From Rhodoplanes sp. (GTDB taxonomy: Bacteria > Pseudomonadota > Alphaproteobacteria > Rhizobiales > Xanthobacteraceae): a DNA stretch of 64,000 nucleotides. The position numbers were made by a program, and so were the translations under genes. The notes beneath the pieces are model-generated. The model was not told where the DNA came from and ran no database searches. It worked only from the letters and a program-made list of their open reading frames with translations. The DNA lies in the NCBI RefSeq assembly GCF_013377085.1, contig NZ_JACAAX010000037.1, forward strand, positions 1-64,000, written 5' to 3'. This document shows, piece by piece, positions 2,484-39,687 of the stretch (the first letter of the stretch is position 1; each line of letters begins with the position of its first letter).

Positions 2484-2499
2484 GTAACCAAGCGGTTAC
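2484..2499. promoter_or_regulatory. TetR-type operator candidate, site 1
   Basis: GTAACCAAGCGGTTAC: perfect 6-bp arms around a 4-bp centre, 60 bases upstream of the oxidoreductase start. It shares the AACC-N4-RGTT core with sites at 6502, 17653 and 18491. The last two flank a tetR gene, so that regulator is the likely binder. Confidence 0.65.
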
Positions 2500-2559
2500 T
2501 TGGCCCAGCGACCGAGTAGTCCGTCGGTCCAGTTTTTTCACATCACGCGAGGCATGCAA

Positions 2560-3714
2560 ATGGCCACCAAGAAGCTCGGCATCATCATGCACGGCGTCAC
2601 CGGACGCATGGGGCTCAACCAGCACCTGGTCCGTTCGATCGTCGCCATCCGCAGCGCAGGGGGCGTGCCGCTCGCCAATGGCGATCGCGTGATGCCGGAA
2701 CCGATCCTGGTCGGGCGCAATGCCGAGAAGGTCGCGGCGCTCGGCCGCCAGTACGGGATCGAGCGCACCACCTCGGACCTCGATGCGGCGCTGAAGAACC
2801 CGGACGACACCGTGTTCTTCGACGCTGCCACCACGCAGGCGCGGGCCGACCTCGTCAGCCGCGCCATCGAGGCCGGTAAGCATGTCTATTGCGAGAAGCC
2901 GATCGCCGACACGCTCGACAAGGCGCTCGCCGTCGCCAAGCTCGCCAAGCAGCGCGGCATCAAGAACGGCGTCGTCCAGGACAAGCTGTTCCTGCCGGGC
3001 TTGCGCAAGATCGCCAAGCTGCGCGAGGCCGGCTTCTTTGGCCGCATGTTCTCGGTCCGGGGCGAGTTCGGCTACTGGGTGTTCGAGGGCGACTGGGGCC
3101 AGCCGGCGCAGCGGCCGAGCTGGAACTACAAGCTCGCCGAGGGTGGCGGCATCATGCTCGACATGCTGTGCCACTGGCGCTACGTGCTCGACAACCTGTT
3201 CGGCAACGTCAAGGCGGTGAGCTGCCTCGGCGCCACCCACATCCCGAGCCGGGTCGACGAGAACGGCAAGACCTATGTGGCCGATGCCGACGACGCCGCC
3301 TACGCGACCTTCGAGCTCGAAGGCGGCGTCATCGCACACATGAACTCGTCCTGGTGCGTGCGGGTGCGCCGCGACGATCTCGTCACCTTCCAGGTCGACG
3401 GCACTCACGGCTCGGCGGTCGCCGGCCTGACCAAATGCTGGACGCAGCACCGGGTCAACACGCCGCGCCCGATCTGGAATCCCGACGTCCCGCAGACCAT
3501 GAACTTCCTCGATCAGTGGGAGGAGGTTCCGGACAATTTCGACTACGACAACGGCTTCAAGATCCAGTGGGAGAACTTCATCCGCCACGTGGTCGCCGAC
3601 GGGCCGTGGAGCCACGACCTGATGGAAGGCGTCAAGGGCGTGCAGCTCGCCGAGCTCGGCCTGAAGAGCTGGGCCGAGCGGCGCTGGATCGACGTGCCGA
3701 AGCTGGAGATTTGA
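2560..3714 (+). CDS. Gfo/Idh/MocA family oxidoreductase
   Basis: 384 residues. The N-terminal Rossmann region has a glycine-rich turn (IIMHGVTGRMGLN, about residues 6-18), and a CEKPIAD motif at about 109-115 supplies the conserved Glu-Lys-Pro of this NAD(P)-dependent sugar and cyclitol dehydrogenase family. The C-terminal half has the usual substrate-binding beta-sheet domain. ATG 2560 is chosen over 2554 because the AGG of the ribosome site (2550-2552) is seven bases from it. A TetR-type operator lies just upstream, placing it in the putative regulon with the ABC transporter at 3849-6457. The substrate is unknown. Confidence 0.85.
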   Translation: MATKKLGIIMHGVTGRMGLNQHLVRSIVAIRSAGGVPLANGDRVMPEPILVGRNAEKVAALGRQYGIERTTSDLDAALKNPDDTVFFDAATTQARADLVSRAIEAGKHVYCEKPIADTLDKALAVAKLAKQRGIKNGVVQDKLFLPGLRKIAKLREAGFFGRMFSVRGEFGYWVFEGDWGQPAQRPSWNYKLAEGGGIMLDMLCHWRYVLDNLFGNVKAVSCLGATHIPSRVDENGKTYVADADDAAYATFELEGGVIAHMNSSWCVRVRRDDLVTFQVDGTHGSAVAGLTKCWTQHRVNTPRPIWNPDVPQTMNFLDQWEEVPDNFDYDNGFKIQWENFIRHVVADGPWSHDLMEGVKGVQLAELGLKSWAERRWIDVPKLEI

Positions 3715-3728
3715 GGCAGGGCGGTTTC

Positions 3729-3840
3729 GTCGTTCCGGGGCGCGGGCTGAAAGCCCGCGAACCCGGAATCCAGCCCTGCAGCGGGGCTTGCAAATGTGAC
3801 TGGATTCCGGGTTCGCCGCTGCGCGGCGCCCCGGAATGAC
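3729..3840. repeat. palindromic intergenic repeat, family A
   Basis: Two GC-rich hairpin units bounded by CGTTCCGGGGCGCGGGC and GCGGCGCCCCGGAATGAC, which pair across the element. Related copies lie at 32472-32573, 35722-35822 and, as a single hairpin, 42823-42867. It separates two convergent genes and may act as a bidirectional terminator. Confidence 0.75.
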
Positions 3841-3848
3841 AGCGTTCC

Positions 3849-4640
3849 TCAATCGAGCTGCGCGTTGAAATGCGCCCGGATGGTCGTGGTCAGCCGCACG
3901 AATTCGGGCATGCCGAGCACGTCGAGCTGGCGCGGGCGCGGTAGGTCGACCGTGTAGATCGCGGCGATCGCGCCCGGACGCTCCGACAGCACGACGATGC
4001 GGTCGGCCAGGAACACGGCCTCGGGAATCGAGTGGGTGATCAGCAGCGCGGTCTTCTTGGTCTCGCGCTGGATGCGTTGCAGCTCGGCGTTCATGCGCTC
4101 ACGCGTCATCGCGTCCAGCGCGCCGAACGGCTCGTCCATCAGAAGAATCTTCGGGTCGTGCACCAGCGCCCGGCAGATCGCGACGCGCTGCTGCATGCCG
4201 CCGGAGAGCTGCCACGGATGCTTGGTCTCGAAGCCGCCGAGGCCCGCCATCTTGAGCAGCGCTTCCGCGCGCGGCTGATAGATCTCGCGCGGCAGCCCCT
4301 TGACCTCGACCGGCATCATCACGTTGGCGAGCACGGTGCGCCATGGCAGCAGCAGTGCCGACTGGAAGACGATGCCGACGTCGCTGTGCGGGCTGGTGAC
4401 GATGCGGTCGCCGACCCGGATCTCGCCTTCGCTCGGTGGCATCAGGCCGGCGATCATGCGCAGCAGCGTGGTCTTGCCGCAACCCGATGGGCCGACCACG
4501 ACGACGAACTCGCCGTCGGCGATCGAGAGGTCGATCGGACGCAGGGACGGGATTTCTCCGTCCGTGGTCCGGTACGTCTTGGCCACGCGCGAGATTTGAA
4601 TCATCGCGCGCGCGGCCGCCGTTTCATCGATGGCGAGCAT
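3849..4640 (-). CDS. ABC transporter ATP-binding protein (SsuB/TauB-type), transporter 1
   Basis: 263 residues. Walker A GPSGCGKTT (50-58), the Q-loop in FQSALLLPW, signature LSGGMQQR and Walker B ILLMDEPFGALDA are all intact, as is the switch His in LLITHSIPEA. It belongs to the nitrate/sulfonate/taurine/pyrimidine-precursor ATPase group. Its ATG overlaps the stop of the binding-protein gene (TGATG), so translation is probably coupled. Last gene of a permease - binding protein - ATPase operon. The substrate cannot be read from the ATPase. Confidence 0.9.
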   Translation of the reverse strand: MLAIDETAAARAMIQISRVAKTYRTTDGEIPSLRPIDLSIADGEFVVVVGPSGCGKTTLLRMIAGLMPPSEGEIRVGDRIVTSPHSDVGIVFQSALLLPWRTVLANVMMPVEVKGLPREIYQPRAEALLKMAGLGGFETKHPWQLSGGMQQRVAICRALVHDPKILLMDEPFGALDAMTRERMNAELQRIQRETKKTALLITHSIPEAVFLADRIVVLSERPGAIAAIYTVDLPRPRQLDVLGMPEFVRLTTTIRAHFNAQLD

Positions 4641-5623
4641 CAGAGACCAGGCGCAGGCAGGAATTCGTTGGTGTAGAAGCTCTTCAGCTTGTCCTTCGCG
4701 GTGGCCTCGAGGCCGCCGTACTCGACCATCAGGTCGACCGAGTCCTTCATGTTGGTGTCGCTGACCCGGAACGGCTGCTTCGACTGGCCGGTCGGATCCT
4801 TGTAGAGCGGGATGGTCAGCTCGAAGCCCTCGGTCAGCGTGCCGATCTTGCCGCCCTTCGGGTTGGCGTTGAGGATCGACTGCGCGGCGGCCTTCGGATC
4901 CTTCACCGCCTCCTCGACGGACTTGATGCTGGCCCGCATGAAACGCCGCACCAGGTCGGGGTTCTCCTTGACGTACTCGGTGTTGGCGATGATGCCCGAG
5001 CTCACCAGATGGACACCGTAGTCCGAGAACTTGATCGGATAGACGTCCTTGCCGGTGGCGTCCTTGATCTTCATGCTCTGGTCCATCACGTAACCGAGCA
5101 GCAGGTCGGCCTGGTTGTTGATGACGGCGTTGAGCTTGGTGGTCGCGTCGCCCGACACGGTCTTGAAGTCGCTCTCCTTCAGGTTGGCTTTCTTGAGGAA
5201 GAGCGGCCAGATCTGCGACATCGAATCGCCCGGCGTGGTGGCGACCGTCTTGCCCTTGATGTCCTCGGGCTTGCGGATGTTCTTGTCGACGAAGCCCATC
5301 ACGGACATCGGGCTGGTCTGCAGCAGCACGCCGGTCGAGATGACGGGCGCACCCTTGATGGTGGCACGCATCATGGTCGGTACGTCGACATAGCCGAACT
5401 GGAGGCTGCGGGCGGCGACGACCTGCGTCACCGTGCCGGAGCCGCGGCCTTCCTGGATGTCGAGGTCGATCCCCTCGGCCGCGTAATAGCCCTTCTCCTT
5501 GCCGTAGTAGAACGGCGCATGCTCGCCGTAGACGTACCAGTTGATCATCAGCGTGACTTTGTCGGCCGCCAGGGCGGGGCCGGCGAGGAGCACGGCAAAA
5601 AGCGTCGTCAGAATCCGGATCAC
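4640..5623 (-). CDS. ABC transporter substrate-binding protein (NMT1/THI5-like), transporter 1
   Basis: 327 residues with a clear signal peptide (MIRILTTLFAVLLAGPALA, then ADK). I chose the GTG at 5623 because a GGAGGT ribosome site sits six bases upstream; the ATG 15 bases earlier lies over that site itself. The mature start VTLMINWYVYGEHAPFYYGK matches the NMT1/THI5 and SsuA-like family, whose members bind thiamine-pyrimidine precursors, sulfonates, riboflavin or aromatic acids. It sits between its permease and ATPase. Confidence 0.88.
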   Translation of the reverse strand: MIRILTTLFAVLLAGPALAADKVTLMINWYVYGEHAPFYYGKEKGYYAAEGIDLDIQEGRGSGTVTQVVAARSLQFGYVDVPTMMRATIKGAPVISTGVLLQTSPMSVMGFVDKNIRKPEDIKGKTVATTPGDSMSQIWPLFLKKANLKESDFKTVSGDATTKLNAVINNQADLLLGYVMDQSMKIKDATGKDVYPIKFSDYGVHLVSSGIIANTEYVKENPDLVRRFMRASIKSVEEAVKDPKAAAQSILNANPKGGKIGTLTEGFELTIPLYKDPTGQSKQPFRVSDTNMKDSVDLMVEYGGLEATAKDKLKSFYTNEFLPAPGL

Positions 5624-5653
5624 GATCTTACCTCCCATTGTTTGTTGGCTCGA

Positions 5654-6457
5654 TCACGCAGCGACGATGACGTCCTGGCGCTGGCTGGCGTGCCAAGGAA
5701 TCACAAGACGTTCGATCAGGTCGAGAATCCAGAACAAAATCACCCCGATGAGAGCGAGGATGACGAGAGCAGCGAACATCGTAGGCAACTCGAAATTTCC
5801 GATACTTCGTTGAAGTACGTAGCCGATCCCCGAATTGGACCCGACGAACTCGCCGACCACGGCGCCGACGACGGCGAGCGTGATCGACACCTTCAGGCCC
5901 GAGAAGATCGCCGGCATCGCGTAGGGCAGGCTCACCATGCGGAAAATCTGCAGCCGGCTCGCCTCCATGGCGCGGGCGAGGTCCAAGAGGTCGGGCTCGA
6001 CCGACTTGAATCCCTGCACGGCCGACACCACCACGGGGAAGAAGCCGAGCAGGAAGGCCGAGAGGACCTTCGGCGTCATGCCGAAGCCGAACCACACGAC
6101 GAACAGGGGCGCGATGGCGATCTTCGGGATCGACTGCGAGAAGACGAGCAGCGGATAGACGTAGCTCTCGATGGTGCGCGAGCCGGCGATCAGCATGGCG
6201 ATCGGGATGCCGAACACGGCCGACAGCAGGAACCCGTAGACGGTGGCGACGGTGGTCGGCACCGCCTCTGACATCAGCTTCGGCCATTCCTGCCACAGGG
6301 TGATCACCACATCGATCGGGGCCGGGACCTGGTAGGGCGGGATGTGGAAAATACGGATCGCAAAATCCCAGAGGGCGATCAGGATAACGAGGAAAATCAA
6401 GGGCCTGAGCCACGGCGCCTGAATCATCTTCTGCAGTCGTTGCATGGCCGACCTCAT
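5654..6457 (-). CDS. ABC transporter permease (SsuC/TauC-type), transporter 1
   Basis: 267 residues with about six membrane spans and a BPD_transp_1 core. The EAA-type loop is visible around residues 165-195 (AMEASRLQIFRMVSLPYAMPAIFSGL). First gene of the operon. Its upstream region, shared with the divergent enolase-superfamily gene, holds operator site 2. No substrate information. Confidence 0.88.
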   Translation of the reverse strand: MRSAMQRLQKMIQAPWLRPLIFLVILIALWDFAIRIFHIPPYQVPAPIDVVITLWQEWPKLMSEAVPTTVATVYGFLLSAVFGIPIAMLIAGSRTIESYVYPLLVFSQSIPKIAIAPLFVVWFGFGMTPKVLSAFLLGFFPVVVSAVQGFKSVEPDLLDLARAMEASRLQIFRMVSLPYAMPAIFSGLKVSITLAVVGAVVGEFVGSNSGIGYVLQRSIGNFELPTMFAALVILALIGVILFWILDLIERLVIPWHASQRQDVIVAA

Positions 6458-6501
6458 GACTCGTCCCCACTGCGGGACCTTGCGACACCATCGCCGCGGA
6501 T

Positions 6502-6517
6502 GTAACCATCCAGTTAT
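6502..6517. promoter_or_regulatory. TetR-type operator candidate, site 2
   Basis: GTAACCATCCAGTTAT, in the intergenic region between the divergent ABC operon (start 6457) and the enolase-superfamily gene. Its 12-base core AACCATCCAGTT is identical to site 3 at 17653. It could control both directions. Confidence 0.6.
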
Positions 6518-6627
6518 TAGTGATTTAAGGAGCTGGCCGTGACCGGGTCAAGTCGTCGGCGCATGTGTCGCACTCGCGCGAGGTCCGCGTCCCACGCGCA
6601 GCCGCGGCCGAACCGCCGGGGGCGGGC

Positions 6628-8055
6628 ATGACGGTGCCGCGCCTGAGCTTGGTCGAGGCGAGCTTTTTCGAGCGGCCGGTACGGCTGCGCCTGCCGTTCC
6701 GGTTCGGGGTGGTCACCCTGCGGGAGGCGCCGCAGGCGTTCATTCGGGTGCGCATCCGCCTCGCCGACGGGCGGGAGGGCGAGGGCGTCTCGGCCGAGCT
6801 CCTGGTTCCCAAATGGTTCGACAAGTCGCCGGACCTTTCCAACGAGCAGAATTTCGACCAGCTCCGCCGCGCGCTTGCGATCGCGCGGGACCACTATCTC
6901 GCGGCTGGGCCGCACACCGCCGCCGGCCTTTCGGCCGCCGTCGAACCGGCGCATCGCGCCGCCTGCGCGGCTGCGGGCCTCAACGGTCTCGTCGCGTCCT
7001 TCGGCCTCGCCGAGCTCGACCGCGCCATTCTCGACGCGCTGGCCCGGCTCGAAGGCATTCCAGCCTTCGCCCTGGTATCGCAAAACCGTGTCGGCCTGAC
7101 GGCACACGCCGCGCCCGACCTCGCCGGTTTCGATCTCGATCGCTTCCTGGCCCGACTCGCCCCGGCGCTGTCCATCTTCGTGCGCCACACGGTCGGCATG
7201 GTCGATGCGCTCACCCGCGCCGACACGGCAGGCCATCGGCTCGACGACGGCCTGCCCGAAAGCCTCGAGGAGGTGATCGAAGCCTACGGGCACCGTCACT
7301 TCAAGCTCAAAGTGTCGGGCGACGCGGACGCCGATGTCGCGCGCTTGTCCGGCATCGCCGCCGTCATCGATCGGTTGTCGGAACCCTATGTCGTCACGCT
7401 CGACGGCAACGAGCAGTACGACACTATCGAGGCCGTGGTGGAGTTGTGGCGACGCATGGGCGAGGCGCCGCGCCTGAAGCGCCTCGTCGCCTCGACCCTG
7501 CATATCGAGCAGCCGATCGGCCGCGCCCGCGCGCTGAACGAGCCCGTGCATGCGCTCGCCGGCCTGATCCCGCTCGAGGTCGACGAATCGGACTGTGATC
7601 TCGACGTTTTCCCCAAGGCGCGCGAGCTCGGCTATCGCGGCGTGTCGGCAAAATCCTGCAAGGGCATCTACCGCGCGCTGCTCAACCGCGCCCGCGTCGA
7701 CCATTGGAACGCGCAGGCGGGGGAAGCAGGGGCGGGCCGCTTCTTCATGTCCGCCGAGGATCTCACCACCCAGGCCGGCATCGCGGTGCAGCAGGATCTC
7801 GCGCTGGCGACCCTGGTCGGCGTCAAGCATGTCGAGCGCAACGGCCACCATTACGTCGACGGCATGGCCGGCGCATCGGAGGAGGAGCAGGCGCGTTTTC
7901 TCGCCGCCCATGGCGATCTCTACCGGCGCAGCAACGGCCGCGTGCGGCTGGCCATAACGGGCGGCGCGGTGGCGCTCGGCTCGATCGCGCAGGCCCCGGG
8001 CCTCGCGGTCGGAACGATGCCGGACTGGGCCTCGATGCAGCCGATGCGGCTGTGA
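6628..8055 (+). CDS. enolase-superfamily enzyme (mandelate racemase/muconate lactonizing-like)
   Basis: 475 residues from ATG 6628; a GTG at 6565 would add 21 residues. An N-terminal capping domain precedes a TIM-barrel-like domain with a K-x-K motif (HFKLKVSG, about 224-231) and successive carboxylates in LDGNEQY, HIEQPIG and EVDESDCD, as expected for Mg-dependent enolisation. It is longer than usual MR/MLE enzymes (350-400). A sugar-acid dehydratase or racemase role is plausible given the isomerase and DHDPS-like neighbours, but the substrate is unknown. It is divergent from ABC transporter 1 across operator site 2. Confidence 0.75.
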   Translation: MTVPRLSLVEASFFERPVRLRLPFRFGVVTLREAPQAFIRVRIRLADGREGEGVSAELLVPKWFDKSPDLSNEQNFDQLRRALAIARDHYLAAGPHTAAGLSAAVEPAHRAACAAAGLNGLVASFGLAELDRAILDALARLEGIPAFALVSQNRVGLTAHAAPDLAGFDLDRFLARLAPALSIFVRHTVGMVDALTRADTAGHRLDDGLPESLEEVIEAYGHRHFKLKVSGDADADVARLSGIAAVIDRLSEPYVVTLDGNEQYDTIEAVVELWRRMGEAPRLKRLVASTLHIEQPIGRARALNEPVHALAGLIPLEVDESDCDLDVFPKARELGYRGVSAKSCKGIYRALLNRARVDHWNAQAGEAGAGRFFMSAEDLTTQAGIAVQQDLALATLVGVKHVERNGHHYVDGMAGASEEEQARFLAAHGDLYRRSNGRVRLAITGGAVALGSIAQAPGLAVGTMPDWASMQPMRL

Positions 8056-8104
8056 GCACCCGGCGGAACGAGAGCACACTGACGATGCCGATCACTCTGG
8101 CCGG

Positions 8105-8941
8105 ATGACGGACATGCGGGTTTCTTTGTGCAACGAGGTGATCGCGGCGCTGCCCTTCGCGGCCCAGTGCGGGTTCGCCCGCGCGGTCGGCTATGACGGG
8201 CTCGAGCTCGCGCCCTACACGGTCTCGGATGCGCCGCATCTGATGCCGGCGGCCGAGCGCACTGCCATACGGCACGCCGCGGCAGAGGCCGGCATCGCCA
8301 TCACGGGCCTGCATTACCTGATGCGGGCGCCGGCTGGCCTGTCGATCACCTCGGCGGATGCTCCGGTGCGACAGCGCAGCATCGACGTGATGCGGCGGCT
8401 GTGCGGGCTCGCCCACGACCTCGGCGCGAGCGTGCTGGTGCACGGCTCGCCCGATCAGCGCCGGCTCGATCCCGGTGAGGAGGAGGAGGGGCGCAAGCGC
8501 GCCGCCGACGCCTTCGCGGCCGTCGCCGAAGCGGCCGCCGCGGCCGGTGTCGTCTACTGCATCGAGCCGCTGTCGCGGCGCCAGACCAACTGCATCAACA
8601 CGGTCGCGCAGGCGGCCGAGATCGTCCGCGCGGTCGGCAACCCGGCGCTCAGGACCATGATCGACTGCTCGTCGTCGGCCGTGACCGAGGCCGAGCCGAT
8701 CCCGGATCTCGTTCGGCATTGGGTTCCGGCTGGCCTGATCGGCCACGTCCACTTCAACGATCCGAATCGCCGCGGCCCGGGCGAGGGCGAGCTCGAGTTC
8801 GCGCCGATCGTCACGGCCCTGCGCGACGTCGGCTGGCGCGACGTCGTCGGCGTCGAGCCCTTCGTCTACGAGCCCGACGGACCCACCTGTGCGGCCCGCG
8901 CGATCGGTTATGTCCGCGGCCTTCTCGAAGCGATTCCCTGA
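8105..8941 (+). CDS. sugar phosphate isomerase/epimerase family protein (xylose isomerase-like TIM barrel), first copy
   Basis: 278 residues (270-290 is usual for the AP_endonuc_2 / xylose-isomerase-like fold). Acidic and His positions typical of the metal site are visible: YCIEPLSRR, TMIDCSS, GHVHFNDPN and GVEPFVYEP. Gap to the upstream gene is 49 bases, so likely one operon with it and the next gene. Such proteins act as epimerases or isomerases of sugars and inositols, or as hydroxypyruvate isomerase-like enzymes. The exact reaction is unknown. Confidence 0.78.
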   Translation: MTDMRVSLCNEVIAALPFAAQCGFARAVGYDGLELAPYTVSDAPHLMPAAERTAIRHAAAEAGIAITGLHYLMRAPAGLSITSADAPVRQRSIDVMRRLCGLAHDLGASVLVHGSPDQRRLDPGEEEEGRKRAADAFAAVAEAAAAAGVVYCIEPLSRRQTNCINTVAQAAEIVRAVGNPALRTMIDCSSSAVTEAEPIPDLVRHWVPAGLIGHVHFNDPNRRGPGEGELEFAPIVTALRDVGWRDVVGVEPFVYEPDGPTCAARAIGYVRGLLEAIP

Positions 8942-8969
8942 AAGCCGAAACAAGAAACCAGGACCAGCG

Positions 8970-9794
8970 ATGCCCAACGAAGGCCTGTCGATCAATCTCG
9001 CCACCGTGCGTCAGCAGTGGAACGTCGGGCAGGCCGTGGAAGCCTGCGCCCGCCATGGCATCCGCGCCATCGATCCGTGGCGCGATCAGGTTGCCGCGTT
9101 CGGGCTCGCCGAGTCCGCGAAGGTCATCGAGGATCACGGCATGCGGGTGACCGGCTATTGCCGCGGCGGCATGTTTCCTGCCGTCGACGCGGCGGGCCGC
9201 CAGGCCGCGATCGACGACAACCGCCGTGCCATCGACGAGGCGGCGACCATCGGGGCCGAGTGTCTGGTTCTGGTGGTCGGCGGACTGCCGAAGGGCTCGC
9301 GCGACATCGTCGCGGCGCGCGAGATGGTGGCCGAGGGCCTCGCCGCGGTCCTGCCGCACGCGCGTGCGGCAAAAGTGCCGCTCGCCATCGAGCCGCTGCA
9401 TCCGATGTATGCGGGCGACCGCGCCTGCGTGAACACGTTGGGCCAGTCGCTCGATCTCTGCGCGCGGCTGGGGCCGGACGTCGGCGTGGCCATCGACGCC
9501 TATCACGTCTGGTGGGATCCGGATCTGGCCGCCCAGATCGCCCGCGCCGGGCGCGAGAAACGGATCTTCGCCTATCACATCTGCGATTGGCTTGTGCCGA
9601 CCCGCGACATGCTGCTCGACCGCGGCATGATGGGCGACGGGGTGATCGATCTGCCGGCCATTGCCGGAATGATCGAGGACGCCGGCTACACGGGCTTCCA
9701 CGAGGTCGAAATTTTCTCCGCCGAAACCTGGTGGAAAAAGCCGGGCGACGAGGTCTTGGCCACCTGCCTGGAGCGATTCGCTTCGGCCTGCTGA
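8970..9794 (+). CDS. sugar phosphate isomerase/epimerase family protein, second copy
   Basis: 274 residues, the same TIM-barrel family as the preceding gene but not a close duplicate. Metal-ligand regions are AIEPLHPMYAG, VAIDAYHVWWDP, FAYHICDWL and HEVEIFSAE. The start ATG follows a CCAGGACC ribosome site and lies 28 bases after the previous stop. Two consecutive divergent isomerases in one operon suggest two successive steps, or two subunits, on a sugar-like compound. Confidence 0.78.
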   Translation: MPNEGLSINLATVRQQWNVGQAVEACARHGIRAIDPWRDQVAAFGLAESAKVIEDHGMRVTGYCRGGMFPAVDAAGRQAAIDDNRRAIDEAATIGAECLVLVVGGLPKGSRDIVAAREMVAEGLAAVLPHARAAKVPLAIEPLHPMYAGDRACVNTLGQSLDLCARLGPDVGVAIDAYHVWWDPDLAAQIARAGREKRIFAYHICDWLVPTRDMLLDRGMMGDGVIDLPAIAGMIEDAGYTGFHEVEIFSAETWWKKPGDEVLATCLERFASAC

Positions 9795-9937
9795 AGGCTC
9801 TCCGGCGGCGACCCCCGCGCTGCCGCAAGAAACGTCCGAACGGGCGAAACGTGGACGGCCCCGTCCGCGACGGGACTGTGCGCGCAACGCCTGCGAGACC
9901 GTGATCCATCCATCACCGTCACATCGGGAGATGCGCC

Positions 9938-11341: not shown

Positions 11342-11490
11342 CGGCGTCGGTGCCGGGCCGACTCGCTCCGGCATCCTCCCGCGTGAGGCCGTCCGTCCGG
11401 CGGCGAGACCGGACGGCGGCCAAGCAGGGTTCATAATCCTGCCCCGATCGGGTGGCATAAGACAGCATCATCCGATCTCGGAGGCGACAG

Positions 11491-11514
11491 CGGCGGCCCG
11501 CCGGAGGGCCGCCG
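11491..11514. terminator. GC-rich hairpin, possible terminator
   Basis: CGGCGGCCC / GGGCCGCCG, a perfect 9-bp stem with a 6-base loop, followed by TCGTCGTC without a true U-run. It lies 150 bases after the binding-protein gene and before the next start. Confidence 0.35.
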
Positions 11515-11588
11515 TCGTCGTCTCCGCTCTTGTCTTGCGTGCTCGCTGTGTCTCTCGACGAGGCCTGAGCCGACGTCAGAAGAGAACC

Positions 11589-12749
11589 ATGCGAAGCCAC
11601 TCGAATTCTGCCCATCGTTCGTCGATCGACCGTGTGCCGCTCCCGCTGCGGCCGTCGCCGTGGCGCTTCGGCGCGCGGCTTCGCCCCTCTGTGCGGGCCT
11701 GGCGGGCGGCGCGCGATCTCTCGCGCCGCGCCGTGCCGGATACCGCCGGGCTGCGGCGCTCGTGGCTCTTTCTCGTCTGTATCGGGATCCCGTTCGTCAC
11801 CGGCACCCTCTTGGAGCAGCCGGGCGGTGCGCTGCTCGGCGCGCTGATCGGGATGATGACGTGCTTCGGCGACGAGGATCAGCGCGGACTCGGCGCCCGC
11901 TGGCTGGTGCTGATCCAGGTCGCACTCGGCATGGTGGCAGGCGGCATGCTCGGCACGCTGCTCGACGGCTATCAGAACCCGTTCTGGTTCCTGTTCGGCG
12001 TCGCGCTGTTCGCGGCCGGATGGCTCAACAAATACGGCAAGGGTCCGCATCTCGGCACCCGCTTCGGTGCCATCGCGCTCGGGCTCACGGCCGGCATGCC
12101 GGGCTTTGCGCCCTCCGACTTCTCGTTCGTGCTGCTCGCTTTCGTGGTCGCGGGGATCGCTCGCACCATCGATCACCTGCTCTTCGGGCCGATGCCGGCA
12201 CTCCCCGGCTTCAAGCCGCCGCCGCGGCTGGAGCATCACCACGAATGGCTGCGCTTCGCCGCCGCCTATGCGGCGGTCGCGGCGCTCGGCCTGTGGATCG
12301 GCATCGAGCTCGGCATGACGCGCGCCATCTGGATCACGGTCGCGCCCCTGGTGGTGATGCTGCCGGGCGCGCAGGCGACCTATCGGCGGATCGTCGAGTT
12401 CATGTTCGGCACCACGGTCGGCGTCGTGGTCGCCTGGGTGCTGATCCATACGCTGCACGCGCCGCTCGTCTCGATCGTCGCCGTGGTGGCGATCGCGCCG
12501 CTCATCCCGCTGCAGATGCCGCGCCGGTTCTGGCTGCAGACCGCGCTGATCGCCGTGATGCTGCTGATCGCCTTCCGCCTCGCATTGCCCGATCCAAGGT
12601 CGGTCTCGGCCCTGATCGTCGAGCGGCTGGAGGACATTCTGCTCGGCTGCGGCCTGGCCCTGGTCGGCGCCGTGCTGGCCTTCGGTCGATCGCCCGATCG
12701 CGCGGCGGAGGACGCCGCCGTCGCGCGGCCGCGCCTCACCGCCCGTTGA
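11589..12749 (+). CDS. FUSC-like integral membrane protein
   Basis: 386 residues. After a basic N-terminus of about 55 residues come paired clusters of hydrophobic helices (about 58-200 and 215-365), the layout of the FUSC / aromatic acid exporter family (YccS, AaeB). The large cytoplasmic domain of full-length AaeB is missing. The ATG is preceded by AGAAG. Its end overlaps the convergent ATPase gene by 14 bases. It could export a toxic acid intermediate of the neighbouring pathway, but this is only positional inference. Confidence 0.65.
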   Translation: MRSHSNSAHRSSIDRVPLPLRPSPWRFGARLRPSVRAWRAARDLSRRAVPDTAGLRRSWLFLVCIGIPFVTGTLLEQPGGALLGALIGMMTCFGDEDQRGLGARWLVLIQVALGMVAGGMLGTLLDGYQNPFWFLFGVALFAAGWLNKYGKGPHLGTRFGAIALGLTAGMPGFAPSDFSFVLLAFVVAGIARTIDHLLFGPMPALPGFKPPPRLEHHHEWLRFAAAYAAVAALGLWIGIELGMTRAIWITVAPLVVMLPGAQATYRRIVEFMFGTTVGVVVAWVLIHTLHAPLVSIVAVVAIAPLIPLQMPRRFWLQTALIAVMLLIAFRLALPDPRSVSALIVERLEDILLGCGLALVGAVLAFGRSPDRAAEDAAVARPRLTAR

Positions 12750-13509
12750 AGAAGCCGAGCTGCTCGTAGATGCGGCGCGAATACTGCGCGAAGGCGTCGC
12801 TGGTCTTGACGTCGAAGGGTCGCGGCTGCGTCAGGTCGATCGGAAAGAACTCGGCCATGCGGGCCGGCCGCGCGGTGAGCACGGCGACATGCGTGCCGAG
12901 GAAGATCGCCTCGGCGATGTCGTGCGTCACGAACACGATGGTCTTGCGGCTCTGCAGCCAGATGCGCTGCAGCTCGAGCTGCATCTGCTCGCGCGTGATG
13001 GCGTCGAGCGCACCGAACGGCTCGTCGGCGAGGATCAGCTTGGGATCGTGGATGAGGGCGCGGGCGATGGCGCAGCGCTGCTGCATGCCGCCCGAGAGCT
13101 GCTGCGGATACTTGTCCTCGGCGCCGGCGAGCCCGACCATGGCGAGGAGATCGCGGGCGCGCTCGCGGCTCGCCTTGCGCGGCAGCCCGATGATCTCGGC
13201 CGGCAGCAGCACGTTCTCGATCACGGTGCGCCACTTCAGCAGCAGCGCCTGCTGGAAGATCATGCCGATATCGCGGCCCGGATCGAACCGCGTCGTGCTG
13301 TTGCCGATCGTCACGGTGCCGCCCTCGTGGCCGTGCAGGCCGGCGAGGATCTTCAGCACCGTCGACTTGCCGCAGCCGGACGGCCCGACCAGCGACACGA
13401 GTTCGCCCTCGGCGATCTCCATGGTCACGTCGGAGACGGCGAGATGGGCGCTCGCGCCGCTCCCGTAGACCTTGCGGACATTGTGCAGGCTGATGAACGG
13501 CTCCGTCAT
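12736..13509 (-). CDS. ABC transporter ATP-binding protein (SsuB/TauB-type), transporter 2
   Basis: 257 residues with Walker A GPSGCGKST, signature LSGGMQQR, Walker B LILADEPFGALDA and switch His in VFVTHDIAEA. Its start overlaps the stop of the DHDPS-like gene by four bases (ATGA). The probable partners, the permease at 16689-17597 and binding protein at 18696-19733, are separated by enzyme genes, but all are in the region with TetR-type operators. Last gene of the minus-strand operon 17597-12736. Confidence 0.88.
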   Translation of the reverse strand: MTEPFISLHNVRKVYGSGASAHLAVSDVTMEIAEGELVSLVGPSGCGKSTVLKILAGLHGHEGGTVTIGNSTTRFDPGRDIGMIFQQALLLKWRTVIENVLLPAEIIGLPRKASRERARDLLAMVGLAGAEDKYPQQLSGGMQQRCAIARALIHDPKLILADEPFGALDAITREQMQLELQRIWLQSRKTIVFVTHDIAEAIFLGTHVAVLTARPARMAEFFPIDLTQPRPFDVKTSDAFAQYSRRIYEQLGFFNGR

Positions 13510-14567
13510 GCGAGCCACCGCTCCAGATTGGCGCGCACGAAGGCGTCGTCCGAGAGGTCGGCGTGCTCGCGCAGCACGCGGTCGATGGCGGCGGTTTGAC
13601 CCGGTCCCAGGCCCTCGTTGCGATCGAGGCACCAGATGCCGGCCAGCAGGCCCTGCCGCCGCAGCACCTCGTGGCAGCCGGCGATACAGCCGTGAAAATC
13701 GTTGGCGACGTCGAAGAAGGCCGCGTTGCAATCGGTGACCCGGGCATCGAGCGCCAGCAGGTCGGCGTCGATCGCGGCGGCGCCGCGCACCACCTTGCAG
13801 CGATCGAACAGTTTTACCGCGCTCGCCGTCCACACCGACCAGTGGCCGAGCAGCCCGCCCTTGATCGAGGTCCGCACGGCCTTGCCGCCGATGCGCAGGT
13901 CGAAGGGCAGCACCAGATCGAGCACGATGTGGTCGTCGTTGCCGGTGTAGAGGGCGACGCGGTCGAGCGCGCCGGCCTCGGCGACGCCGCGGATCACGTC
14001 GAGGGTACGGTAGCGATTGAACGGCGCCATCTTGATCGCGACGACATTGTCGATTTGCGCAAAACGCCGCCAGAAATTCGCGCTCAACGGCAGTCCGCCG
14101 ACCGCGACCTGGAGATAGAAGCCGACCAGCGGGATCTCCGCCGCGACCGCCTCGCAATGGGCGACGATTTCGTCCTCGCTGCGGCCCTTGAGAGCCGCGA
14201 GGCTGAGGAGGCCGGCGTGATAGCCGAGCCGCACGGCGGTGCGGGCCTCGGCGACGGCCTGCGCGGTGCGGCCGGCGAGACCCGCCACCATCACGAGCGG
14301 GCGCGCGGTCCAGGCGCGCGCCGACTCGGCGGCGAGGCTCAGCACCGGCTCGTAGAGGCCGACGTCGCGGATCGCGAACTGGGTGGTGTGGACCCCGACC
14401 GCGAGCCCGCCGGCGCCGGCGTCGACATAATAGCGGGTCAGCGCCCGCTGGCGTCGCGCATCGAGGTCGCGCTCCGCCGTCAGCGCCAGCGGATGGGCCG
14501 GGATGACTGTGCCCTCCATCAGCAGGCGCAGGACGTCGGCGCTCAGCTCGCTCCGGTGCAGGCCCAT
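13506..14567 (-). CDS. dihydrodipicolinate synthase-like (DapA/NanA family) lyase
   Basis: 353 residues, longer than typical DapA (about 290-300) by a C-terminal extension. The TIM barrel has the Schiff-base lysine in NVVAIKMAPFNR (about residue 178) and the beta-strand Tyr region GFYLQVAVGG. Family members cleave or form pyruvate aldol adducts of sugar acids, sialic acid or dihydrodipicolinate. Position beside sugar-isomerase and dehydratase-like genes favours a catabolic aldolase. A 14-bp palindrome lies 45 bases upstream. Confidence 0.78.
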   Translation of the reverse strand: MGLHRSELSADVLRLLMEGTVIPAHPLALTAERDLDARRQRALTRYYVDAGAGGLAVGVHTTQFAIRDVGLYEPVLSLAAESARAWTARPLVMVAGLAGRTAQAVAEARTAVRLGYHAGLLSLAALKGRSEDEIVAHCEAVAAEIPLVGFYLQVAVGGLPLSANFWRRFAQIDNVVAIKMAPFNRYRTLDVIRGVAEAGALDRVALYTGNDDHIVLDLVLPFDLRIGGKAVRTSIKGGLLGHWSVWTASAVKLFDRCKVVRGAAAIDADLLALDARVTDCNAAFFDVANDFHGCIAGCHEVLRRQGLLAGIWCLDRNEGLGPGQTAAIDRVLREHADLSDDAFVRANLERWLA

Positions 14568-14611
14568 TCTTGCCGTCGCTCCTTAACCTCGTCCGTTTTG
14601 TGGTCGTGTCG

Positions 14612-14625
14612 TGATCACGTGATCA
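14612..14625. promoter_or_regulatory. perfect 14-bp palindrome, possible operator
   Basis: TGATCACGTGATCA, 45 bases upstream of the DHDPS-like gene start. A perfect palindrome of this size upstream of a catabolic gene is suggestive of a GntR- or LacI-type site. It does not match the TetR-type sites in the same region. Confidence 0.4.
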
Positions 14626-14641
14626 GGAGAGTTTGGTGGTC

Positions 14642-14782
14642 AAGAAAGAGCCCCCCACCCCCGACCCCTCCCCGCCATTCGCTGACGCGAATGGGGGGAG
14701 GGGAGCCGCAGCGCCTCGACTACCCTCCCCCCGCGAGCGAAGCTCGTGGCGGGGAGGGGTCGGGGGTGGGGGGTTCTTTCTT
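14642..14782. repeat. palindromic intergenic repeat, family C
   Basis: A long inverted repeat: AAGAAAGAGCCCCCCACCCC at the left pairs with its complement ending GGGTTCTTTCTT at the right, with further hairpins inside (CATTCGCTGACGCGAATG and GCGAGCGAAGCTCGTGGC). Related sequence occurs at 19760, 53259 and 62541. Confidence 0.75.
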
Positions 14783-14802
14783 CCTTCGTCCATTCATCGA
14801 GC

Positions 14803-15648
14803 TCACCCGAACTCCGGCCCTGCCGTCGCAAAGGCAATGTCGGTGTCGCCCAGCGCCGCGTAGCCCCGCACCATGCGCTGGAGCGGCCGCTCCTCGACGA
14901 ACCCGTGGTCGGCGAGGCGCGCCCGCAGGCCGGCATTGCGCGCCATCAGATCGATGATCAGGGAGTCCGGCTCGTCGGCGATGGCGCGGTCGAGCAGCGC
15001 GCAGGCGGCGTCCTCGCTCTCGGCATAGAGCGGGCCGATGTGGCGGGCGCAGCGGCCGTTTCGAACCAGGCAGACGGCGCTCGCCTGGGCGTGCAGCATC
15101 GTGCCGGGCCGCGACAGCATGTCGTCGAGCAGACTCGAGCGGTCGGCCGCCGTGGCGCGCCGGTCGAACGCGAGCAGCGCGTCGCGGTCGCCGGCCGTGG
15201 CCTCGATTGCTGTGGTCCGTTCCGGCGTATTGGGCCGCTTGCGGCGCAGCCGGACGATGTCGGCGACCGGCTTGAAGCCGAGCGGCACATAGACGGCGGC
15301 GCCAGCCGGCGTCGCATCGAGAAACGGAATCACGCCGGCCGCGTCGGCCTCGTCGATGCAGCGCTTCAGCAGCGTCTTCGCCAGCCCGTGGCGCCGCCAT
15401 GTAGCCGTCACCAGCACCATGCTGATCCAGGCGATGCCGGGTGCCGCGCCGAGCGGCGCGTAGGGCAGCAGCGCCGCGGTGGCGACCAGCCGGTCGTCCT
15501 TGCGGACCGCGAAGACGTGCCCCTGGGTCCGGAAGAACGTCCAGTCGTCCGCCGTCTGATTCCAGCGCGCCTCGTCCGAGAGCGCGAGCGCCGCCCGGGT
15601 CTCGTGCGCGCCGAGCGGCTCGGCCGCGGCGAGATCAATAGCGGCCAT
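14803..15648 (-). CDS. GNAT family N-acetyltransferase
   Basis: 281 residues. The acetyl-CoA-binding region is visible in ISMVLVTATWRRHGLAKTLL (about 76-95; R/Q-x-x-G-x-G/A type with RRHGLA) and AAVYVPLGFKPV. A C-terminal region of about 130 residues follows, as in the two-domain YitH-like acetyltransferases. The ATG at 15648 lies inside the end of the epimerase gene (14-base overlap), supporting co-translation. The acceptor is unknown. Confidence 0.72.
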   Translation of the reverse strand: MAAIDLAAAEPLGAHETRAALALSDEARWNQTADDWTFFRTQGHVFAVRKDDRLVATAALLPYAPLGAAPGIAWISMVLVTATWRRHGLAKTLLKRCIDEADAAGVIPFLDATPAGAAVYVPLGFKPVADIVRLRRKRPNTPERTTAIEATAGDRDALLAFDRRATAADRSSLLDDMLSRPGTMLHAQASAVCLVRNGRCARHIGPLYAESEDAACALLDRAIADEPDSLIIDLMARNAGLRARLADHGFVEERPLQRMVRGYAALGDTDIAFATAGPEFG

Positions 15649-16681
15649 CGCGGACCTCGAACTTGGTCGCCTTGCCCAGGCTCGGCATGGCGCGGCCGAC
15701 CCAGTCGGCCGTCCAGTCGAGCATGCGCTCGATGTCGACGACCGGCTTGCCGAACAGGCCTTGCGCCTCGCGCGTGTCGCTGAGCCAGGCGGTCGGCGCC
15801 TCGCTGCCGGTGAACGCCGGGGCACGGCCGAGCCGGCGACCGAGGCCTTCGGCGAGCGCCCGCACCGACAATGTGTCCGGTCCGCTGACATTGAGCGGGC
15901 TGGTCGGCGTCGTCGCGTGGCGCAGGCAGCGCAGCGCCTGCGCGGCGGCGTCACCCTGCCAGATCACGTTGACGTGCCCCATGGTGAGATCGATCGGCTT
16001 GCCGGCTGCGAGCTTGCCGGCGATGTCGTGCAGCACGCCGTAGCGCATGTCGATCGCGTAATTGAGGCGGAACAGCTTTCCGGGCGTGCCGTGCAACTGC
16101 GAGAAGTAGGAGAACATGCGCTCGCGGCCGACGCAGGACTGCGCATATTCGCCGGGTGGATCGAGCGCCATGTCCTCGGCCGCGCCGCCGCTGTCCACCG
16201 GTACGAACGGATAGACGCAGCCGGTCGAGAAGGCGACGATGCGGGCGCGCGAAAAGCAGCGCGCGACGAGCGCCGGGCTGAGCACGTTCATGGCCCAGGT
16301 CAAGGCCAGGTCGCCCTCGGCGCCGAATTTGCGGCCCGCCATGAAGATCACATTGGCGGCGTCCGGCAGCGTCGCGATCGCGGCCTCGTCGAGGAGATCG
16401 CAGGCGATCGTCTCGATGCCCCGCGCCTCCAGCGTCTCGCGAAGGCCCGGCTCGCTGAAGCGCGCCACGCCGATCACCCGCTTGCCGGGGGCCGCCGCCT
16501 TGGCGAGGCCGGCCACCGTCGGCCCCATCTTGCCGCCGACGCCGAGCACCAGGATGTCGCCCTCGACGGCGGCGAGATCGTCGATCAATGCCTTGGTCGG
16601 CCGGCAAAGCAACGCGTCGAGCGCGTCGAGATCGGCGATGCGATCGGGCAGATCGGCGTCGAGCGTCATGGTCGCGGTCAT
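15635..16681 (-). CDS. NAD-dependent epimerase/dehydratase family protein (extended SDR)
   Basis: 348 residues. A Rossmann glycine motif (LVLGVGGKMGPTVAGLA, about 45-61) and a downstream STGCVYPF stretch match the extended SDR family. The catalytic Tyr-x3-Lys is not obvious: the expected segment reads GEYAQSCVGRE, with Arg in place of Lys. Spacing of 7 bases to the upstream permease gene and overlap with the acetyltransferase gene make it part of one operon. A sugar or lactone substrate is plausible. Confidence 0.7.
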   Translation of the reverse strand: MTATMTLDADLPDRIADLDALDALLCRPTKALIDDLAAVEGDILVLGVGGKMGPTVAGLAKAAAPGKRVIGVARFSEPGLRETLEARGIETIACDLLDEAAIATLPDAANVIFMAGRKFGAEGDLALTWAMNVLSPALVARCFSRARIVAFSTGCVYPFVPVDSGGAAEDMALDPPGEYAQSCVGRERMFSYFSQLHGTPGKLFRLNYAIDMRYGVLHDIAGKLAAGKPIDLTMGHVNVIWQGDAAAQALRCLRHATTPTSPLNVSGPDTLSVRALAEGLGRRLGRAPAFTGSEAPTAWLSDTREAQGLFGKPVVDIERMLDWTADWVGRAMPSLGKATKFEVRDGRY

Positions 16682-16688
16682 GCGGGCC

Positions 16689-17597
16689 TCATTGGATGCG
16701 GGCGTCGCGCACGACGACCAGGCGCTCGAGCCCGAGCACCAGTCCGTACAGCGCGACGCCGAGCAGCGTGAGCAGGATGACGGCCATCAGCATGCCGGCC
16801 GTGTCGAGCCCGGCCTGCACCTGGATCATCAGGTAGCCGAGGCCGCGCTCGGAGGCGATGAACTCGCCGACCGTCGCGCCGGCGACCGCCAGAATGGCGC
16901 CGACCTTCATGCCCGAGAACAAGTAGGGCAGGGCGCCGGGAAGCTGGATTTTCTGGAAGAGTTGCCAGCGCGAGCCTTTGAGAGAACGCACCAGATCGAG
17001 GAGGTCGGGGTCGACCTCGCTCAGGCCGCGGGCCGTGGTGAGCAGGATCGGGAAGAAGCAGATCGAGAAGGCGATCAGGATGTTCGGCACGATGCCGTAG
17101 CTGAACCAGACGATGATCAGCGGACCGAGCGCGACCTTCGGCACCATGTTGAGGGTGACGAACAGCGGCAGCAGGATCGCGGCGATCAGCCGGAACCAGG
17201 AGAAGGCGACGGCGCAGACGACGCCGACGGTCACGCCGAGCAGGTAGCCGCCGAAAATCTCCAGCGCCGTCACCGAGACGTTCGGCAGCCATGCATAGTG
17301 CGGCTGCGCCAGCGTCGCCAGCGTGGCGCGCGGCGAGGGCAGCACGAAGGCGGGGATGGCGAACAGGTCGACGGCGAGTTGCCACACCAGCACGACGGCG
17401 AGATGCACGGCGACGATGGTCGCGGCGTTGGCGAGCGCGGCGCGGGTCGCAGCGGCGCGCGAGGGGTCGGGGCCGGGCTGGCCGGCGCCGATCATGTCCG
17501 GGGCGGGCGCCTCCGGCACAGACGTGCCGGGACGCGCCCCGTCGGTTCGTCCGCTCTCGTCGCTTGTGGTCACCGGGCGTCCCTCGTCCCGTTGCAT
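16689..17597 (-). CDS. ABC transporter permease (SsuC/TauC-type), transporter 2
   Basis: 302 residues with a hydrophilic N-terminus of about 55 residues, then six or so membrane spans with the EAA loop around SLKGSRWQLFQKIQLPGALP. First gene of the operon permease - epimerase - acetyltransferase, continuing after the repeat at 14642 with the DHDPS-like enzyme and ATPase. Operator site 3 lies 56 bases upstream of its start. Confidence 0.85.
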   Translation of the reverse strand: MQRDEGRPVTTSDESGRTDGARPGTSVPEAPAPDMIGAGQPGPDPSRAAATRAALANAATIVAVHLAVVLVWQLAVDLFAIPAFVLPSPRATLATLAQPHYAWLPNVSVTALEIFGGYLLGVTVGVVCAVAFSWFRLIAAILLPLFVTLNMVPKVALGPLIIVWFSYGIVPNILIAFSICFFPILLTTARGLSEVDPDLLDLVRSLKGSRWQLFQKIQLPGALPYLFSGMKVGAILAVAGATVGEFIASERGLGYLMIQVQAGLDTAGMLMAVILLTLLGVALYGLVLGLERLVVVRDARIQ

Positions 17598-17652
17598 CGG
17601 CCCGGTGCGACCGGGTGCGGAGCCTCAGGTGTACCGCGGCCGAAGGCCGGAA

Positions 17653-17668
17653 TCAACCATCCAGTTGA
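17653..17668. promoter_or_regulatory. TetR-type operator candidate, site 3
   Basis: TCAACCATCCAGTTGA, with TCAAC/GTTGA arms perfect. It lies between the end of tetR (17676) and the permease operon start (17597), where it would overlap that operon's promoter. Confidence 0.65.
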
Positions 17669-17675
17669 TAACGGC

Positions 17676-18470
17676 TCACGGCCGCAGCGCGTTCATCACC
17701 AGGTCGACCACGTGGGCGCGGCGCGCCGCGACAGCGGGTCGGCTGTCGAGTCTGCGCTTGAAGATGGTCGAGAGGGTGGCCGCGTTGGAGAAGTAGAAAT
17801 AGCCGAGCGCCGCGATCGAGACGTAGAGTTGCATCGGATCGATGCCGTGGCGGAACGCGCCGGTCTCGGCGCCCTTGTCGAGCGTCGCGGCGATCAGGGC
17901 GATCAGCGGCGAGTGCATGGTGGGCAGCTTCGGCGAGCGCCGCACATGCGCCGCGCCGTGACGGTTCTCGTCGGTCAGGAGTGCGACGAAATCGGGATGC
18001 GCCGCGAGATGGTCGAACGAGATGCCGACCAGATGGGCGATCGCCTCCTCGGGCGCCATGCCGGCGAGGTCGACCTTGCGCTCGGCGGCGCGGATCTCGT
18101 CGTAGAGCCATTCCAGAACCGCGAGATAGAGTGCGTCCTTGTCGCCGAAGTGGTGGTAGACGAGCTGCTTGTTGACCCCGGCGCGCGTCGCGATCTCGTC
18201 GACCCGGGCGCCGGCCAGCCCTTTGGCGGCGAATTCGGCGCGGGCGGCGGTGAGCAGGGCGCGCCGCGTCGCGGCGGGATCGCGGGTACGACGCTTCGGC
18301 GCCGACGCCGATTTCGGCTTCGCCGGCACGGGCTGCGCCGCCGACAGCGTCGTTGCTGCCGGCTTGGTTCGAGACGGCGCCGCCCGTCGCGCCGCGTTGC
18401 CGCCGTCGCACTGCGCGCCTCCGAGAGCCTTGCCGCCGCGTCGTGTCGCTCCGCGGGTTCCCGTCGCCAT
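17676..18470 (-). CDS. TetR/AcrR family transcriptional regulator
   Basis: 264 residues. The TetR_N DNA-binding domain spans about 62-110 (ALLTAARAEFAAKG, then VDEIATRAGVNKQLVYHHFG as the helix-turn-helix), followed by an all-helical ligand and dimer domain. An unusual basic Ala-rich extension of about 60 residues precedes the HTH; no better start is seen inside it. A matching 16-bp operator lies 21 bases upstream (18491) and another just downstream (17653), consistent with autoregulation and control of both flanking transporter operons. The ligand is unknown. Confidence 0.88.
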   Translation of the reverse strand: MATGTRGATRRGGKALGGAQCDGGNAARRAAPSRTKPAATTLSAAQPVPAKPKSASAPKRRTRDPAATRRALLTAARAEFAAKGLAGARVDEIATRAGVNKQLVYHHFGDKDALYLAVLEWLYDEIRAAERKVDLAGMAPEEAIAHLVGISFDHLAAHPDFVALLTDENRHGAAHVRRSPKLPTMHSPLIALIAATLDKGAETGAFRHGIDPMQLYVSIAALGYFYFSNAATLSTIFKRRLDSRPAVAARRAHVVDLVMNALRP

Positions 18471-18490
18471 GTCGAACCAGCCTGTTCGAA

Positions 18491-18506
18491 CCAACCAACC
18501 GGTTGA
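18491..18506. promoter_or_regulatory. TetR-type operator candidate, site 4
   Basis: CCAACCAACCGGTTGA, CAACC/GGTTG arms perfect. It lies in the divergent region between tetR (start 18470) and the binding-protein gene (start 18696). Confidence 0.65.
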
Positions 18507-18695
18507 ATGTTTGTTGACGCATCCTCGTCGCGTTGGTACCGATTTTGCGTCGCTTTCACAAGCCGTGCCGGACACGACGGCGCTCCGGTGCGGGTCGCCG
18601 CCTCCTGCCGTCGGTTTCGCGCGTCCGGGCCTGCGGGCCGTCACCAGGGTCGGCCCGGCCTCCGCGCCGCCGCCCGAGCAGCGGGAGTTTTCACG

Positions 18696-39647: not shown

Positions 39648-39687
39648 AACCTCAAAGTTGCGGATGTTGCGGTGTAAGGGGCCAGCC

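Follow-up and report, generated by a model that had tools for sequence, protein, structure and literature searches.

The 64,000-nucleotide stretch of Rhodoplanes sp. contig NZ_JACAAX010000037.1 analysed here (the window; the whole genome, 6.48 Mb, is labelled G000) contains four 16-mers, at positions 2484, 6502, 17653 and 18491, which a first-pass annotation had proposed as the operators of a single TetR regulon joining uptake genes and enzyme genes into one putative pathway. We confirmed the four 16-mers as they had been written (4 to 6 of their 8 positions pair as a palindrome), and two of them, 17653 and 18491, do flank a tetR gene, as had been stated. Sequence comparison with relatives makes it probable that two modules of a single catabolic pathway, modules A and B, are combined at this locus, each under the control of its own member of a pair of TetR_C_29 regulators, TetR1 and TetR2.

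Module A (positions 12742 to 19733) includes tetR1 (17676 to 18470, reverse strand), whose product was assigned by Pfam, by its place in a TetR tree and by alignment of the recognition helix (NKQLVYHHF, with glutamine Q102), and which matches TetR_N with 55.7 bits (cut-off, 24) and TetR_C_29 with 136.4 bits (cut-off, 26.2). On the same strand lie the genes of an ATP-binding cassette (ABC) permease (16689 to 17597; Pfam), a nicotinamide adenine dinucleotide (NAD)-dependent epimerase/oxidoreductase-type enzyme (15635 to 16681), a two-domain GNAT acetyltransferase (14803 to 15648; Pfam), a lyase or dehydratase of the dihydrodipicolinate synthase (DHDPS) superfamily (13506 to 14567; Pfam) and the ABC ATPase of the importer (12742 to 13509). 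The epimerase/oxidoreductase-type enzyme gave no Pfam match at 1e-3; the genes at the same position in the clusters of two relatives (L211 and L215) are annotated as 'NAD(P)-dependent oxidoreductase'. Orthologues of the ATPase, at 64 to 77% identity, lie directly 3' of the DHDPS-like gene in most of the loci having it within our first set, which was found via the DHDPS-like protein and of which the best 80 of 586 loci were used. An NMT1/THI5-type substrate-binding protein (NMT1-B; 18696 to 19733, forward strand; Pfam) completes the module, and its gene is divergent from tetR in the relatives as well. As for the DHDPS-like protein, residues Y151 and K179, which from their position we take to be the catalytic tyrosine and the Schiff-base lysine of DHDPS, are invariant in 25 sequences, and the model (predicted local distance difference test score [pLDDT], 91.7) adopts the DHDPS fold, with a target template-modeling score of 0.84 to 3si9; judged by this model, a TIM barrel with the Lys and Tyr, the protein is a member of the superfamily.

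Module B (positions 2484 to 9794) opens with a Gfo/Idh/MocA oxidoreductase (2560 to 3714, forward strand; Pfam), 91 to 93% identical to its counterparts in three congeners, whose nearest solved chain, 3oqb (E value, 1.4e-183), bears just the title 'Oxidoreductase'. The genes of an NMT1-type importer follow on the reverse strand, namely, the ABC ATPase (3849 to 4640), the NMT1/THI5-type substrate-binding protein (4640 to 5638) and the permease (5654 to 6457), all three recognized by Pfam and compared with the module B operons of loci L199, L200, L201 and L207, where the ATPase has orthologues at 65 to 71% identity and the binding protein at 71 to 80%. The forward strand then carries an enolase-superfamily enzyme of 475 amino acids (6628 to 8055; Pfam MR_MLE_C) and two xylose-isomerase-like TIM-barrel enzymes (enzyme 1, 8105 to 8941; enzyme 2, 8970 to 9794; both Pfam), the first of which has IolO as its best NCBIfam match, with 91.0 bits against a cut-off of 300. 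In the enolase-like enzyme, the KxK motif (K226-x-K228), three acidic metal ligands (D259, E294 and D319) and a second lysine pair (K342 and K345) are invariant in 18 sequences, and the model (pLDDT, 89) has the enolase-superfamily fold (best E value, 3.5e-15; 12 to 19% identity among the matches listed). On the strength of the modelled fold and of the conserved metal and acid-base residues the enzyme is an enolase-superfamily member. Beyond the module, a lone Leu/Ile/Val-type periplasmic binding protein (Peripla_BP_6) is encoded at 9938 to 11341, with no adjoining permease among the called genes.

Each of the four sites stands close to the start of a transport or enzyme gene. The first (GTAACCAAGCGGTTAC, 2484 to 2499) has the ATG of the oxidoreductase 60 bp downstream, and the second (GTAACCATCCAGTTAT, 6502 to 6517) lies between two divergent genes, with the module B permease starting 44 bp and the enolase-like gene 110 bp away. 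The third (TCAACCATCCAGTTGA, 17653 to 17668), whose dyad is conserved in relatives, is placed 7 bp past the tetR1 stop and 55 bp before the module A permease, while the fourth (CCAACCAACCGGTTGA, 18491 to 18506) occupies the region between tetR1 (20 bp) and NMT1-B (189 bp) and has a counterpart, CCAACCAACCAGTTGA, in the corresponding position at congener locus L109. The core AACC-N4-RGTT shared by the four gives 9 strand matches in the window, compared with 0.67 expected, and none of 100 shuffles reaches 9; the excess is weaker for YAACCAWSCRGTTR with up to 2 mismatches (6 matches against 1.81 expected, with 3 of 100 shuffles reaching 6). Across the 6.48 Mb, the 12-mer AACCAWSCRGTT is found 8 times, compared with 3 for the reversed-pattern control; 5 of these occurrences fall in the window, corresponding to the four sites and a tRNA-Met gene, and the remaining three fall in a thiamine pyrophosphate riboswitch (1) and inside called reading frames (2). 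Similarly, YAACCNNNNRGTTR has 25 strand matches genome-wide (control, 12) at 17 distinct places, 4 of which are within these 16 kb, and the probability of any such cluster by random placement is about 2e-4. Two further matches in the window were not retained: at 77 to 90 the core lies coincidentally inside the tRNA-Met gene, and the lone match at 39648 was not counted as part of the regulon.

In the first set, a tetR1 relative is present in 68 of the 80 loci, the usual order being NMT1, tetR, permease, oxidoreductase, GNAT, DHDPS and ATPase, and a core site occurs in the cluster in 66 of the 68 loci with tetR but in only 3 of the 12 without it. Moreover, 130 of the 140 core matches found across the 1.51 Mb of these loci fall inside the cluster spans. 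In the stretch that separates tetR from the following operon gene, the dyad TCAAC-N6-GTTGA is found in 46 of 57 regions, the window's included, while any 5-base dyad reaches at most 2 in ten shuffles. The signal was weaker than hoped in the nmt1B-tetR intergenic regions, with CAAC-N6-GTTG in 23 of 53 and an unrelated dyad, GCGAC-N7, in 16; since these regions end where the alignments do, some sites close to tetR starts may have gone unseen. The motif tracks the tetR orthologue, which is what the first-pass annotation had wanted checked, and testing for the refuting outcomes named there (frequency at random places and lack of conservation upstream of orthologues) did not refute the sites; the four sites are supported as conserved, TetR-linked predicted operators.

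The four predicted operators are of two classes, which share AACC-N4-RGTT and differ at the outer bases of the half-sites. The TC class (TCAACC-N4-GGTTGA; 17653 and 18491) accompanies TetR1, and the GT class (GTAACC-N4-GGTTAC; 2484 and 6502), also found in the loci of some relatives, accompanies a paralogue, TetR2. In particular, matrices trained on 42 TC and 19 GT sites, none of them from the window and 4 of the 19 GT sites assigned from sequence alone, divide the window's sites two and two, with GT/TC scores of 24.3/4.9 at 2484, 20.4/8.4 at 6502, 8.7/24.6 at 17653 and 4.8/22.4 at 18491, and leave-one-out assignment is correct for 59 of 61 sites. The close paralogues of tetR1 in the genome are on contigs C19 (44 to 48% identity) and C10 (45%); the former is orthologous to the TetR2 of the congeners, with 86 to 89% identity. 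In three congeners (G053, G117 and G079), TetR2 adjoins the oxidoreductase gene with a GT operator in between, and near-identical sites corresponding to 2484 occupy the same position beside tetR2 in loci L106, L107 and L108. G117 and G079 keep both GT operators at matching positions by base-level alignment, including the second one before the enolase-like gene; the orthologues of the 6502 site read GTAACCATCCGGTTAT at L108:10921 and ATAACCAACTGGTTAC at L107:8837. In these two genomes only TetR2 was found, and TetR1 was not found at E values of 1e-50 or lower.

A tree of 60 TetR proteins separates the two groups at a branch with support of 94/85, on one side of which are 8 TetRs accompanied by GT sites only (11 rows, 3 of them without sites) and on the other 42 with TC sites only and 5 with mixed half-sites; the C19 TetR of G000 joins the TetR2 of the congeners with support of 100/100. 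Examples of mixed half-sites in the TetR1 clade are those of L075 (GTAACCAAACAGTTGA), L050 and L082, and TetR1-clade proteins may therefore accept one T half-site. The clades also differ in the recognition helix, where, at the position of TetR1 residue 102, all 48 TetR1-clade rows have Q and all 10 TetR2-clade rows have arginine (R), 2 of the 60 rows being left out. A second set, made up of 58 TetR loci obtained by genome searches with TetR queries and not via the DHDPS gene (species overlap with the first set is possible), repeats the association: TC sites accompany 11 of 11 Q-type loci, whereas among the 45 R-type loci GT sites accompany 34, with one additional stray match in two of these, and TC sites none, so that no crossed case occurs (Fisher test, 1e-10, kinship ignored).

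In the window, homology to the congeners begins at 2392 to 2444, just before the first operator, and on C19 it ends at the tetR2 stop; tetR2 and its operator have therefore been parted in this genome. The interval from the oxidoreductase to the enolase-like gene differs as well, since the 2.7-kb NMT1 importer operon (3849 to 6457) is absent from L107 and L108, where the enolase-like gene is instead followed by TctC-, TctB-size and TctA-type genes. The importer genes are 65 to 80% identical to those of the complete module B operons of L199, L200, L201 and L207, whose order is R-type tetR, permease, NMT1, ATPase, enolase-like gene, oxidoreductase, DUF993 and TIM enzyme. These comparisons suggest that transporters were exchanged under one and the same operator, the NMT1 importer operon being inserted here relative to L107 and L108, with their Tct-type genes. 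A DUF993 protein stands regularly between the Gfo/Idh oxidoreductase and TIM enzyme 2 (L081:7921-9081 and the four operons just named) and is missing from the window and from L107 and L108.

The joining of the enzymes into one pathway, which the first-pass annotation had derived from a shared regulon, finds support in relatives. In L081, one row holds the epimerase-type oxidoreductase, a GNAT match, tetR, a GT site, the DHDPS-like gene, the Gfo/Idh oxidoreductase, DUF993 and TIM enzyme 2, and opposite to this row stand the genes of the enolase-like enzyme and of TIM enzyme 1; the Gfo/Idh, DHDPS-like, GNAT, oxidoreductase and tetR genes are likewise clustered in L155, L158, L159 and L163. In six loci of Comamonadaceae-type or unplaced bacteria (L063, L068, L070, L076, L078 and L079), the TC-controlled module A operon has the enolase-like gene after it. 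Furthermore, the enolase-like gene is present in 51 of the 397 genomes that sample the order, and the TetR is found at E values of 1e-45 or lower in 48 of these but in 72 of the 346 others (Fisher test, 4e-25, kinship ignored). Since the enzymes stand in single TetR-linked clusters in some relatives, the idea of a shared pathway is supported, and it is likely, on this comparative evidence, that the enzymes of modules A and B belong to a common pathway; the part of the original claim that does not stand is the control of all four sites by a single TetR.

As for the chemistry, none of the enzymes tried attained the cut-off of any family model, and the fold searches confirmed the superfamilies without pinning down a substrate. 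Gci belongs to the enolase superfamily and KdgD to the DHDPS superfamily. Udh-Gci-KdgD is the oxidative uronate pathway of Agrobacterium, starting with an NAD-dependent dehydrogenase (PMC6353982). The window has the same three enzyme types (NAD oxidoreductase, enolase superfamily and DHDPS superfamily) and, different from that pathway, the system adds the Gfo/Idh oxidoreductase, TIM isomerases, GNAT, DUF993 and TetR control; in addition, the DHDPS-like enzyme scores 19.4 bits against the cut-off of 278 for 5-dehydro-4-deoxyglucarate dehydratase. A Gfo/Idh oxidoreductase with xylose-isomerase-like TIM enzymes is typical of the levoglucosan and C-glycoside (DgpA-type) 3-keto-sugar pathways, a likeness that extends to a distant match with DgpA (7xr9; E value, 2.7e-8). 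However, the levoglucosan dehydrogenase model gave 69.8 bits against a cut-off of 650, and the enolase- and DHDPS-type enzymes are present only on the window's side. By analogy, the enzymes probably form a sugar or sugar-acid route that works like Udh-Gci-KdgD; we write 'works like' and not 'is' because no family model reaches its cut-off. A sugar-type substrate also fits the plasmids of Paenibacillus and Streptomyces, where carbohydrate ABC transporters and NAD oxidoreductases adjoin the DHDPS-like gene. More generally, members of the DHDPS-like family, at 54 to 73% identity, occur on plasmids of Gram-positive bacteria (L211 to L215), with sugar ABC transporters and LacI, ROK or AraC regulators as neighbours.

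Among known regulators, RutR is the best NCBIfam match of tetR1, and the two have in common the TetR_N fold and local palindromic operators; the score, however, is 60.7 bits against an equivalog cut-off of 368, and the target genes and the operator differ. RutR-type repressors serve pyrimidine utilisation, with the RutR operator reading TTGACCA-N-GGTCAA, and their repression is released by a compound of the pathway. By analogy, control at our locus would most simply be repression with release, activation being an alternative. The portion of a comparative-genomics survey of Proteobacteria considered here has TetR rows for FabR, FadP, LiuQ, PsrA and RutR (PMC5343134); those regulons were likewise deduced from conserved palindromes, and the TetRs listed in that portion control other pathways. 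TetR regulons are a known kind, and the pathway itself is apparently undescribed, given that we found no description of it, of the two operator classes or of the Q/R association in the open-access literature searched, which takes in few subscription papers and none of the regulon databases themselves.

The following arrangement is the most probable explanation. Module A would be repressed by TetR1 through its two TC-class operators and module B by TetR2, encoded on C19, through its two GT-class operators, with the Q/R difference in the helix going with the operator class. A rearrangement would have cut between tetR2 and its operator and placed tetR2 on contig C19, and a metabolite of the pathway would release both repressors. 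A sugar or sugar-acid substrate would probably be oxidised, isomerised and dehydrated by the enzymes and cleaved in the last step, as uronates are by Udh-Gci-KdgD.

Several observations weigh against this arrangement. No core site lies beside the tetR2 gene of G000 on C19, and cross-binding is possible, given the AACC-N4-RGTT core common to both classes and the mixed half-sites found within the TetR1 clade. In the second set, 10 of the 45 R-type loci have no core site and one has an unrelated match alone; moreover, the operons of L199, L200, L201 and L207, from one related genus pair, have an R-type TetR and neither a core site nor a GTAAC-N6-GTTAC site, and therefore count against a universal rule. 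The Q/R association follows the clades, and the Q group may derive from one change. Finally, module borders are not fixed, because the enolase-like gene follows a TC-controlled operon in the L063-like loci, and the gene neighbourhoods of some bacteria are without GNAT or the enolase-like gene.

The alternative that survives best, possible though with the odds against it, is that of overlapping regulons, in which TetR1 and TetR2 bind both classes with different affinity and cross-talk couples the modules; it draws on the common core and on the single TetR that stands over genes of both modules in other lineages (L081 and L163), whereas the clean separation of the classes in two sets suggests selection against cross-binding. 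It seems unlikely that the modules are unrelated catabolic pathways, chance neighbours using sister regulators. G079 has module B with no DHDPS-like gene at E values of 1e-20 or lower, and A and B are unlinked in many genomes, such as G122, but joint clusters under one TetR exist in several lineages, and the enolase-like gene is part of the module A operon in the six loci mentioned above. Less probable still is the proposal of the first-pass annotation that TetR1 binds all four sites. The common core, the spacing of the four sites within 16 kb, the lack of any other close TetR in the window and the tolerance of the TetR1 clade for mixed half-sites speak for it; however, the TC-matrix scores are 4.9 (2484) and 8.4 (6502), whereas 18491 and 17653 reach 22.4 and 24.6, no Q-type TetR accompanies a GT-class site in the second set, and the GT sites are kept in G079 and G117, in which no TetR1 was found at E values of 1e-50 or lower; ownership of all four sites by one TetR is thus not supported, nor are the sites confined to genomes in which TetR1 was found. 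That the sites are chance palindromes, as the occurrence of the core elsewhere in the genome (once in a tRNA gene) and the 2-mismatch scan only weakly above chance might suggest, is contradicted by conservation at matching positions in relatives and has a negligible probability.

Taking up again the arrangement of two modules under two sister TetRs, we tentatively advance a broader picture, for which we would claim somewhat less than even chances. A widespread proteobacterial pathway would have a dedicated TetR lineage that was duplicated, the operator being re-specified by the Q/R change in the helix coupled to the second base of the half-site (C to T), and the regulon would have split into two insulated halves. 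In this genome the operator sets would have come to lie side by side, with the second regulator moved away and with the GT operator before the enolase-like gene also fronting a newly inserted transporter operon. The two-module reading offers a natural, testable case of the insulation of duplicated repressors, with two sister TetRs, two operator classes and one helix residue that follows the class. It also ties an enzyme set found in many Alpha- and Betaproteobacteria into a single pathway whose control points are known, and it may guide the experimenter as to which genes to delete jointly and which promoters to use as reporters in the search for the substrate.

The other close paralogue, the C10 TetR (locus L096), was considered as the owner of the GT sites and rejected, being outside the GT clade, with a helix that keeps Q and two other similar sites in its own region. 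These are TTAATTATCTAGTTGG at L096 8012, between a TctC-type gene and a coenzyme A-transferase-like gene, and TTAACTATCTGGTTGG at 15134, and a third sister regulon is possible. At L139 and L166, the helix position of the TetR relative is A or S, its gene has DHDPS-like, oxidoreductase and enolase-like genes as neighbours, and no AACC-type site is present. The single A-type and S-type loci of the second set have no core site, and operator types beyond TC and GT may exist. Lastly, some of the enzymes have second copies: a DHDPS-like gene at C14:63852-64913 of G000 (61%), with one at 61% elsewhere in G117 as well, and a Gfo/Idh gene at C34:163676-164815 of G000 (48%).

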